The position numbers and the translations under genes were made by a program. Positions 51,131-54,721 of a stretch of 64,000 nucleotides of DNA are shown here, piece by piece. How positions within the stretch are numbered: position 1 is the stretch's first letter; each line of letters starts with the position of its first letter. The DNA lies in contig CP006772.1 in the NCBI GenBank assembly GCA_000473305.1, positions 620,001 to 684,000 of the forward strand. The letters run 5' to 3'. The stretch is from Bacteroidales bacterium CF. GTDB taxonomy: Bacteria > Bacteroidota > Bacteroidia > Bacteroidales > UBA932. The notes beneath the pieces were generated by a model. The model saw nothing but the letters and a program-made list of their open reading frames with translations. It was not told the DNA's origin and ran no database searches.

Positions 51131-54028
51131 TTAATTAGGGTCTACATCAATTATTATCTTGACCGAACCGCGTGTTCTCTTTTCTATCTCTTCTATTTCA
51201 GAGGCAATCACAGATTTAATCTCAAATAATAAATTGTTTCTCGAGAGTTTTATCCAAAATTGTAGCTGATGTTCGTCCATGAGTTTTTCCAACGGAGGAG
51301 TGAACGGACCGTTCCATTCACGTGCACCCCACGACGGAGCCTTCTCTGAAACCAGCGATGCCGCCTCATGTAACTTCTCTTTATTGGTGCTCTTTAGTGT
51401 AATTTTTATAAGCCTCACATATGGCGGGAATCCGTATTCCTCACGTTCATTGAGCTGCTGCGCCGCAATAATTGAGCCTTCCTGCTCTTCCGGATTGCTC
51501 AACAGATGCTGGTATATCGGATGTTCCGCCCGGGATGTCTGTATCATTATCTTGCCTTTGGAGTGCTTTCTGCCTGCTCTTCCTGCAAGTTGGCGTAACA
51601 TCTGGAAAGCTCTCTCCTCGGCTCTGAAATCCTGAACAGTGAGCATGCTCTCAGCGTTGAGGACGCAGATAAGTGACAGATGCTCAAAGTCAAAGCCTTT
51701 GCTGAGCATCTGAGTGCCTACCAGTATATCTGTCTTGCCCTGAGAAAACTCTTTAAGGATCTTCTTCTCATTTACAGTGCTCCGGGTTGTCTCAAAATCG
51801 AAACGCTCTATCTTAGCCGAAGGAAAAAATTCCCTAAGCCTCTCCTCAACCTTCTCGGTTCCTATTCCCCTCTCTCTCAGCCCAGGATTCCCGCACTTGG
51901 TACAGATAGTGTTGAAACGTATATGGTAGTTGCAGTAGTGACATCTGAGCTCGTTCCTGCTCTTGTGATAGCTCAGAGAGACATTGCAGTGGGGACAGAC
52001 CGGGATCTCTTCGCAGTACATGCACTGCACCATCGGAGAGTATGATCGCCTGTTCCTGAAAACCATCACCTGTTCATTCGAATCAATTTTCTCTTTGATT
52101 GCCTCCAGAATTTTCCTTGAGAACTCCCCCTCCATTCTTCCGAATTTCCGCTCCCTTACAGTATCTACTATCTCTATGTCAGGTGATTCTGTGCCGTAAT
52201 AACGTTCGTTCAGCCTCACAAGGGCATATTTGCCGTTGTTTGTGTTGTATTGTGTTTCAAGAGAAGGGGTTGCAGAGCCAAGCAATGTATATGCAGAGTG
52301 AAAACCAGAAAGTATTAGTGCTGTGTCTCTGCCATTGTATCTTGGCGCCGGATCGGCCTGTTTGTATGACTGGTCGTGCTCCTCGTCTACTATAATCAAT
52401 CCGAGTTTGTTGAAAGGGAGAAAAAGCGATGACCTTGTGCCCAGAATCAGGTATCTATCCTTATTGTCCTGCAGTAACCTACGCACTCTCTCTCTCTCAT
52501 TACGTGTCTGTTTTGAGTGATAGACCAGCAGAGATTCCCCGAAAACCTTTTCGAGTCTGGAACTGAGTTGTCTGCCCATAGCAATTTCAGGAACCATCAT
52601 AAGCACATTCTCACCTTTTTCGATTATCTCTGAAGCCAGACGAATATATATCTCAGTTTTGCCGGAACCTGTAATACCATTTAACAGAGCAACCTTTCCG
52701 GCACTGAAAGCCTCTTGGATTGATAAAAAAGCATCTTTTTGAGCAGGAGAGAGTTCCGGTAAACTCTCGCTAACCTCTCTGACAGGCTTTCGTCTTTTTC
52801 TCTTACTCTCTGTGACAGAAATCCCTGAGGGATATGCCGCTTTATATACCTCACCCTGAGTACACAGATAGTATTTTGCCATCCAATCCCAGAGTTTAAG
52901 CTCGTTCTCGGTTATCTTATATTCAGAACTCAGATTGATAATCTCCTTAATCTTTCCCCTGTACTCTCCGGGAGAGTGAGAAATAGCACTCACTGCCGCA
53001 TTATACTCCTTGTTGGCAAAGTTAACCCTTACAACAGACCCTATCTCGATGGTGTCATTAAACTGTTCAGGAACCCGGTACGTCACCTCATCCCTGAACT
53101 TAAGCGGAAGGATGACATTTACGAACATCTCTCCCTTAACATATCCGGCCACCTCTTCAAGCAACCACTTGGGAGTCGAGGTTGCACCACATACTCCGAC
53201 AGAGTCTCCCTCTTTGAACCACTCCCTTTTTATCTCTTCAATCCTCTCTATCTTATATGAAGATGGATTGACCGATTTGCAGCTTTCAAAAAGGATTTTG
53301 CCGTTTGAGCTCTCTTTTCCCGAGACAAATATGATAACAGAATGCTTAGCGGCGAACTCTTTCAGATGTGGATGTCTTGAGGAGACCTGACCGCATATTG
53401 TGTTGAAAGATTTGAAATTTCCGGCGGGTTCACCTGCGCTTTCAATTCTTTGCTGAATAATCCTGCATATCTCACGGTACTCATCCAGATCCTTGGTAGT
53501 CTGAGAGAAGATTACGACAGGTCTTGAGTAGTCTACTGAGTCAAGATCGGCTGCCCCCTCTATAACAATTGCATTACCACCAGTCTGTCCAACAAGCCCG
53601 TTGACTTCGGCATGCCCCTTTTTCCCGAATATAAGAAGCTGTCCGTTAATCTTTCTGACCTCCTCGTAGTGCTCCTTAATCCTTTTCTGAAGTTTGAGCA
53701 CAACAGGACATGTACAGTCAATCAGCCTGAGATTGTTTTTCCTGGCTGTCTCGTAGCTTGACGGGGGCTCGCCGTGAGCACGGATGAAAAGAACAGAGTC
53801 TTTCAGCTCCTTCATATCATCGTGGTTTACCACCTCCATACCCTTCTTTCGAAGCCTGTCCAGCTCTGTGTTGTTATGAACAATAGAGCCCAGCGAGTAC
53901 AATTTCCTGTTCTTGTCCAGAAAACTCTCTGCCTCCTCTATGGCTCTTACCACCCCGTAACAGAATCCGGACATGGTATCGACCTCGACCTTCAGTTCCA
54001 TTTTTGAGAGATCTTTTGCGAAATCCAC
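51131..54028 (-). CDS. Fusion of IspH (HMBPP reductase) and PriA (primosomal helicase)
   Basis: One uninterrupted frame of 965 codons. Residues ~10-297 are IspH, the last enzyme of the MEP isoprenoid pathway. Its cluster cysteines are Cys23 (GFCYGV), Cys107 (DCTCPVV) and Cys212 (NTICGQ), with His51 (VHNN), His84 (RAHGEPP), GHAEVNG and SQTT also present. Residues ~301-965 are PriA: FVNVILPLKFRDEVTYRVPE, Walker A GITGSGKTEIY (451-461), DEEH (548-551), eight zinc cysteines (669-712), and GTQMLSKGFDF. PriA restarts stalled forks. The linker is only about 3 residues. Met10 (54001) is the likelier start; both candidates overlap cmk. Met301 (53128) could allow separate PriA synthesis. Confidence 0.85.
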   Translation of the reverse strand: MDFAKDLSKMELKVEVDTMSGFCYGVVRAIEEAESFLDKNRKLYSLGSIVHNNTELDRLRKKGMEVVNHDDMKELKDSVLFIRAHGEPPSSYETARKNNLRLIDCTCPVVLKLQKRIKEHYEEVRKINGQLLIFGKKGHAEVNGLVGQTGGNAIVIEGAADLDSVDYSRPVVIFSQTTKDLDEYREICRIIQQRIESAGEPAGNFKSFNTICGQVSSRHPHLKEFAAKHSVIIFVSGKESSNGKILFESCKSVNPSSYKIERIEEIKREWFKEGDSVGVCGATSTPKWLLEEVAGYVKGEMFVNVILPLKFRDEVTYRVPEQFNDTIEIGSVVRVNFANKEYNAAVSAISHSPGEYRGKIKEIINLSSEYKITENELKLWDWMAKYYLCTQGEVYKAAYPSGISVTESKRKRRKPVREVSESLPELSPAQKDAFLSIQEAFSAGKVALLNGITGSGKTEIYIRLASEIIEKGENVLMMVPEIAMGRQLSSRLEKVFGESLLVYHSKQTRNERERVRRLLQDNKDRYLILGTRSSLFLPFNKLGLIIVDEEHDQSYKQADPAPRYNGRDTALILSGFHSAYTLLGSATPSLETQYNTNNGKYALVRLNERYYGTESPDIEIVDTVRERKFGRMEGEFSRKILEAIKEKIDSNEQVMVFRNRRSYSPMVQCMYCEEIPVCPHCNVSLSYHKSRNELRCHYCNYHIRFNTICTKCGNPGLRERGIGTEKVEERLREFFPSAKIERFDFETTRSTVNEKKILKEFSQGKTDILVGTQMLSKGFDFEHLSLICVLNAESMLTVQDFRAEERAFQMLRQLAGRAGRKHSKGKIMIQTSRAEHPIYQHLLSNPEEQEGSIIAAQQLNEREEYGFPPYVRLIKITLKSTNKEKLHEAASLVSEKAPSWGAREWNGPFTPPLEKLMDEHQLQFWIKLSRNNLLFEIKSVIASEIEEIEKRTRGSVKIIIDVDPN

Positions 54029-54687
54029 TCCATCTGTTCCTCAGGAGACATATGGCTGTTGTCCAGGAGAATTGCATCGGGAGCCATCCTGAGAGGGGCT
54101 GTGTCCCGATGTTCATCAATGTAATCACGTTGTATTATATTCTCCAGGATTTTCTCAAAATCGGCCTTTTCACCCTTGGCAATCATTTCATTGTATCTTC
54201 TCTCTGCTCTAACTTCAGCATCAGCAGTCATAAATATTTTAAGTTCGGCATCGGGAAATACAGCAGTTCCGATATCTCTGCCATCCATGACCACACCTCT
54301 TCTCTCTCCGTATATCCGCAATATTTTGTCCACATAATTCCTCACAAGAGGAAGTGCGGCAATGTAGCTTACCCTTGATGACACAGAGAGGCTGCGAATC
54401 TCTTTCTCAACCAATCTGTCATTCAGATACAACTCACTTTTTCCGTTCTCCCCCGTATTTCGGAATTCCGGTCTGAGGGATTCGAGTTTTGATTCAAGTG
54501 AGTGAGAGTCTATAATGTTATCCTGATTTATCAGTGAGTTTTCGATTGCAAAAAGTGTCACCCCTCTGTAGAGTGCACCTGTATCGACATAGAGCAGGCC
54601 GTACTTCTGGGCAATGGCTTTGGCAAATGTGCTTTTCCCCGTAGAGGAGTGGCCGTCCACTGCTATAATTATCCTTGAAATGTTCAT
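53992..54687 (-). CDS. cmk: Cytidylate kinase
   Basis: About 231 residues from ATG 54687 (the ATG at 54696 is an equal candidate). P-loop IIIAVDGHSSTGKSTFAKAI, YVDTGALYRGVTLFAIE, the CMP-specific insert region, and VVMDGRDIGTAVFPDAELKI with TADAEVRAERRYNEM are all typical. It phosphorylates CMP and dCMP. Its 3' end overlaps the IspH-PriA start by 10-37 bp, depending on which start is used, so the two are co-transcribed; a cmk-ispH pairing is common in the phylum. Confidence 0.94.
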   Translation of the reverse strand: MNISRIIIAVDGHSSTGKSTFAKAIAQKYGLLYVDTGALYRGVTLFAIENSLINQDNIIDSHSLESKLESLRPEFRNTGENGKSELYLNDRLVEKEIRSLSVSSRVSYIAALPLVRNYVDKILRIYGERRGVVMDGRDIGTAVFPDAELKIFMTADAEVRAERRYNEMIAKGEKADFEKILENIIQRDYIDEHRDTAPLRMAPDAILLDNSHMSPEEQMEWISQKISQKWN

Positions 54688-54721
54688 GTCATTCATAAAA
54701 AGCAAACATACGAAAAAGGAT

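Follow-up and report, generated by a model that had tools for sequence, protein, structure and literature searches.

Can two unrelated housekeeping proteins, IspH and the helicase PriA, be encoded as a single polypeptide, or does such a reading frame record an error in the underlying sequence? The question is raised by a 64,000-nucleotide stretch of the Bacteroidales bacterium CF genome (the window; contig CP006772.1, positions 620,001 to 684,000), in which ispH and priA lie in one stop-free open reading frame (ORF) of 965 codons on the reverse strand (51131-54028, opening with GTG 54028). A first-pass annotation had pointed out this frame, which the ORF listing and its translation confirm, together with a Met301 codon at 53128 and an out-of-frame TAA at 53138-53136, both of which are present, and had left the choice between a real fusion and a sequencing or assembly indel open. 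Pfam places the LYTB domain at residues 16-296, followed by the PriA 3′ DNA-binding domain (3′BD), DEAD, Helicase_C, Zn ribbon and PriA_C within residues 304-964 (numbered in the 965-codon frame from GTG 54028, unless stated as from ATG 54001). The frame is a real fusion and, at a probability of roughly 0.8, goes back to a single event in an ancestor shared by the window organism and a second species, with the two halves keeping their ordinary jobs independently of each other.

The second species is represented by a metagenome-assembled genome (MAG), Bacteroidales STD2_69 (G006; JAQVBQ01, JAQVBQ010000002.1), which carries the same fused frame with no internal stop. Both frames are 2898 bp long and align without any indel, the junction included, with 238 nucleotide and 47 amino-acid differences between them; at the junction itself, Val297 is replaced by Ile in G006. 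Synonymous and nonsynonymous divergences (dS and dN) are 0.349 and 0.012 for the IspH half (dN/dS, or omega, 0.034) and 0.394 and 0.027 for the PriA half (dN/dS 0.069). Both omega values lie inside the range of eight neighbouring genes (0.018-0.112) and show strong purifying selection on each half. Given this second species, the fusion is not a one-genome curiosity.

Comparison with unfused relatives indicates how the join came about. All 25 genomes of the genus match both halves, and one stop-free frame runs across the two in the window genome (G000) and G006; in the other 23, G019 among them, ispH and priA are neighbouring genes separated by a stop, and in five of these they share a frame despite it. 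The first-pass annotation had held that close relatives with two separate adjacent genes, and this genome as the only exception, would speak against a real fusion; with two of the 25 genomes fused, that is not the pattern found. More specifically, the distance from the C-terminal end of IspH to the position matching Met301 is shorter in the fused pair by 27, 28 and 29 nucleotides (nt) than in G007, G017 and G004, respectively, and by about 13-55 nt over all 23 unfused relatives, in which the end of ispH falls beyond the point of the out-of-frame TAA. In every one of these genus members PriA starts from an ATG 2-8 codons upstream of the position equivalent to Met301, and the residue there is never Met, so the ancestral priA start appears to have been lost along with the ispH stop. 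Met301 had been placed where PriA would normally start; it is indeed near that site, but does not correspond to the start codon of the unfused genes. When the IspH and PriA sequences of 30 genomes are concatenated for a tree, G000 branches together with G006 (support 1.000), and this pair is joined first by the unfused G004 (0.960) and then by G017 (0.983). Because the two are sisters among unfused relatives, a single event on one branch is the simplest explanation.

In the proposed course of events, ispH and priA would first have stood as closely spaced neighbours, until a small net deletion at the junction (about 27-29 nt) took out the stop of ispH together with the former start of priA and so brought the two frames into register. 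In the resulting single polypeptide, hardly any linker would separate the C-terminus of IspH from the first strand of the PriA 3′BD. As no stop lies in frame, this product should be made; the tryptic peptide GEMFVNVILPLK (Gly299-Lys310) spans its junction. Both halves are predicted to keep their activities, namely reduction of (E)-4-hydroxy-3-methylbut-2-enyl diphosphate and replication restart, and to act independently, the tether between them being tolerated and not demonstrably useful. We infer the deletion event, the making of one protein, the survival of both activities and the lack of cross-talk from these comparisons. The locus would then illustrate clearly how a small deletion at a junction can join unrelated housekeeping genes whose fused form is afterwards held under purifying selection, with 23 relatives offering the unfused state for comparison.

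Whether both halves are intact was a further point, since a complete IspH and a complete PriA had been described. For IspH the description holds. Scores exceed the cut-offs of the LYTB family (PF02401, 265.9 bits, cut-off 24.5), the NCBIfam IspH equivalog NF002187 (341.6 bits, cut-off 276) and TIGR00216 (219.5, cut-off 187.85), and the three Fe-S cysteines line up with the solved Aquifex and E. coli IspH structures. The motifs GFC, TCP, NTIC, VHN, AHG, GHAE, QTT, SSN and GATSTP align with both proteins as well, and we take the active-site His, Glu, Thr, Ser and Asn within them to be the catalytic residues. Since IspG is present in the genome and a genome search did not find HMG-CoA reductase, IspH is probably needed, and the organism probably depends on the fused form. 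No further copy of IspH or PriA was found in the genome, where two extra weak matches cover short helicase stretches only; with no second copy and low omega, a degenerate half backed by another gene is ruled out.

For PriA, the word complete needs qualifying in one respect. The half scores 504.4 bits with TIGR00595 (priA; cut-off 230.35) and carries PF17764, PF00270, PF00271, PF18319 and PF18074 (Pfam), while the residues of the nucleotide-binding motif, the DEEH box and the eight cysteines of the Cys-rich zinc region are invariant in a 24-row alignment. A PDB search matches residues 304-400 to E. coli PriA 5-101 and residues 427-882 to 200-645, which leaves 26 residues (window 52750-52828) in place of about 98 between the 3′BD and the helicase. 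The winged-helix domain that lies there is apparently missing; by every other tested feature the protein is PriA, of a form without this domain. This shortness is older than the fusion, because it is shared by genus genomes with separate PriA; an own-frame, whole PriA of 669-685 amino acids (aa) stop to stop is found in 15 of the 25 genus genomes. Coprenecus and further Bacteroidales and Bacteroidia records hold PriA matches of comparable length (663-709 residues), and the short form is noted for L039-L043, L045 and L046 as well. The PriA half of a predicted structure is mostly confident, with E. coli PriA 8fak as its best fold match (Foldseek, E 3.7e-53) and 6dcr, a solved E. coli PriA from which the winged helix was deleted, as the second best. 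The IspH half of the model is poor, with a predicted local distance difference test score below 50 over residues 191-289 of the model, and just two of the 24 rows of the model's alignment come from ispH-containing frames. Counted from ATG 54001, the last IspH helix (278-287, in the low-confidence part of the model) and the first PriA strand (292-297) are 4 residues apart.

Several points weigh against a tethered protein whose halves work side by side. Just two fused genomes are known, and long-term retention rests on one pair; the low-confidence IspH half leaves the joint geometry of the model without weight; and some free PriA may also arise, either from translation that begins at Met301 or through proteolysis. 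In the strongest form of this last point, the fusion protein would coexist with a useful amount of separate PriA, produced by cleavage or by initiation at the internal Met301, which we regard as unlikely, though it is the best placed of the alternatives. ATG 53128 is kept in both species with identical preceding codons AAG GGA GAG, although their conservation is uninformative because few of the sites are synonymous. The sequence upstream of Met301 shows moderate pairing with the anti-Shine-Dalgarno sequence, at -4.5 kcal/mol (for the general anti-Shine-Dalgarno sequence, the 16S tail motif not having been found in L143). However, among 378 Met codons lying inside long ORFs of the window, 29% pair at least as strongly as Met301, and the median for 43 presumed gene starts is +0.4, with just 12% as strong as Met301, so that the signal is not start-like here. 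The Shine-Dalgarno comparison thus leans slightly against an internal start, and the alignment of Met301 to a non-Met residue in 23/23 unfused relatives argues in the same direction.

A second alternative is a functional coupling of the 'Rosetta stone' kind, in which the Fe-S or substrate state of IspH would regulate PriA, or PriA would place IspH at the chromosome; we consider this improbable. A cell normally requires quite unequal amounts of IspH and PriA, which makes their forced 1:1 synthesis odd, and the fusion has been retained across a dS of about 0.35-0.39. Other IspH fusions exist, and Rao et al. (PMC4746011) speculate that the IspH cluster of IspH-RPS1 may act as a switch. However, the genes are fused in one lineage only (2/25) though they adjoin genus-wide, the stop-separated state persisting elsewhere; selection on both halves is ordinary for the neighbourhood, and no linker or domain was gained. 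The restriction to one lineage among the genomes searched likewise speaks against a functional link between the partners, and the fusion, limited to one sister-species pair among these genomes, is probably near neutral. The suggestion that isoprenoid or Fe-S status might be coupled to fork restart at this locus found no support. Its most explicit version, in which the fork-restart activity or amount of PriA responds to the substrate state or the oxygen-sensitive Fe-S cluster of IspH and the anaerobe slows restart when iron or redox conditions fail, is marginally less credible still than coupling in general; were the halves to influence each other, fork restart would come under a novel form of metabolic control.

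An indel that merged two genes, to which the out-of-frame TAA at the junction and the closing of the strain CF genome from metagenomes by 454 and Illumina sequencing (PMC3868857) might point, has next to no chance and is refuted by G006, because the same one-base error would be needed in two separately assembled species whose frames agree in length and register with no indel over 2898 bp, and because in the 23 unfused relatives the gap between the conserved ends of the two proteins is wider by about 13-55 nt rather than shifted by a single base, a junction anatomy that a one-base error would leave unexplained. Of the two options initially offered for this frame, the real fusion is therefore the one that stands.

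The genuine fusion was also sought elsewhere. Among the matches listed for 60 relatives, no stop-free frame across both domains was seen besides those of G000 and G006, and among those listed for the order (393 genomes) and the phylum (296 genomes), none other than that of G000. Three genomes from other families of the order (G308, G414 and G415; loci L146, L147 and L148) matched both domains and were rejected as further fusions; their ispH and priA are adjacent and in the same frame, with a stop between. Because the genes are neighbours in these three, the adjacency is wider than the genus, and similar fusions could arise in such lineages, given the shared frame. Long IspH frames in G239 and G325 proved to be ordinary separate cmk and ispH ORFs, and in G515, G530 and G385 the IspH ORF, counted from its first ATG, comes to about 290-320 aa, the remainder of the long frame being open upstream without an ATG in G515 and G530. 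In G239 (L149), an ORF resembling 6-phosphofructokinase (by eye) follows cmk-ispH in the place of priA. For G128 there are match positions of cmk and ispH only, and in G149 (L152) the frame that holds the IspH match is 690 aa long, one TAG falling within the matched part. Among 28 pattern stretches in viral contigs, no IspH relative was found.

The genome analysed is a single contig of 2,657,245 bp with three 16S genes, and the window has a GC content of 42.7%; strain CF has been described with about 2.66 Mb, 42.7% GC and three 16S genes under accession CP006772 (PMC3868857). The first-pass annotation had known of no described IspH-PriA fusion, but an 'IspH-helicase' fusion of Bacteroidales bacterium CF is given in the legend to Fig. 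2b of Rao et al. 2015 (PMC4746011), and the fusion has thus been in print in outline since 2015. Like the frame in the window, it is an IspH fused to a helicase in the same organism, and it is almost certainly the very protein described here; the paper's main text does not name PriA, and its accessible part holds no data on origin or selection. Added here are the identity of the helicase as PriA, the second species, the origin, the evidence of selection and a PriA that apparently has no winged-helix domain. In a literature search for IspH/LytB fused to PriA, PMC4746011 was the sole relevant report, the others being judged by title or abstract, and the accessible part of PMC12016555 contains no protein data on strain CF.

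Known IspH fusions include IspH-RPS1 (NF000907) and IspH-UbiA, with 447 and 47 sequences, respectively, according to PMC4746011, which also reports the expression of an active IspH-RPS1. Like the protein of the window, these join IspH to an unrelated C-terminal partner in anaerobes; in the window protein that partner is PriA, and the fusion is known from two species. As a single, non-artefactual frame, the protein belongs among the IspH fusions, and it is not an IspH-RPS1 with S1 repeats, as NF000907 gives 236.6 bits against a cut-off of 624 and the match ends at residue 300. The stand-alone IspH and PriA of the genus belong to the same families, with the same short PriA and the same neighbourhood in the loci examined, and differ in the stop between them and in the more upstream PriA start.

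The features of the fused frame are collected in Table 1. Translation probably starts at ATG 54001 (Met10) rather than at GTG 54028, giving about 956 aa. This start is favoured because an ATG is common at the position (21 of 25 genus loci, although the alignment for L016, one of these, is doubtful) and because 11 of the 25, the nearest unfused relatives G017 and G004 among them, offer no other in-frame start. In 8/25 loci an ATG stands where the window has GTG 54028, which counts against Met10 and makes the longer 965-aa form a possible alternative. Between the fused frames of the window and G006, codons 54002..54028 differ by two nonsynonymous and no synonymous changes.

Table 1. Features of the fused ispH-priA frame and its upstream neighbour (window coordinates)
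Feature	Coordinates	Strand	Evidence or remark
cmk (cytidylate kinase), upstream neighbour	53992..54705	-	overlaps ispH start by 10 nt
Nine codons before Met10, from GTG	54002..54028	-	inside cmk; probably untranslated in the ispH frame
IspH (LytB) domain from likely start ATG 54001	53129..54001	-	Pfam LYTB E 4.5e-79, NF002187, Aquifex and E. coli structures
Junction codons Val297-Lys298-Gly299-Glu300	53129..53140	-	no stop; out-of-frame TAA 53138-53136 inside
PriA part, Met301 to stop, 665 aa	51131..53128	-	TIGR00595, PDB PriA matches, predicted fold
PriA 3′ DNA-binding domain	52829..53119	-	PF17764 E 3e-22, residues 304-400
PriA helicase lobe 1 (GSGKTE, DEEH)	52253..52747	-	PF00270, residues 428-592
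PriA Cys-rich Zn ribbon	51917..51997	-	PF18319, residues 678-704
PriA C-terminal domain	51137..51424	-	PF18074, residues 869-964

The surrounding block rlmH-ntrC-ppx-cmk-ispH-priA-parA-parB is kept in all eight genus loci examined, that of G006 among them; the names of these neighbours, cmk included, are presumed from family resemblance. In the same eight loci, cmk is the upstream neighbour of ispH, and the matches of the two genes, whose overlap in the window spans 53992-54001, also overlap in seven, L125 being the exception. In G035 (L131), a member of the family outside the genus, the block is kept with ispH and priA adjacent, and its PriA is 32% identical to that of the window.
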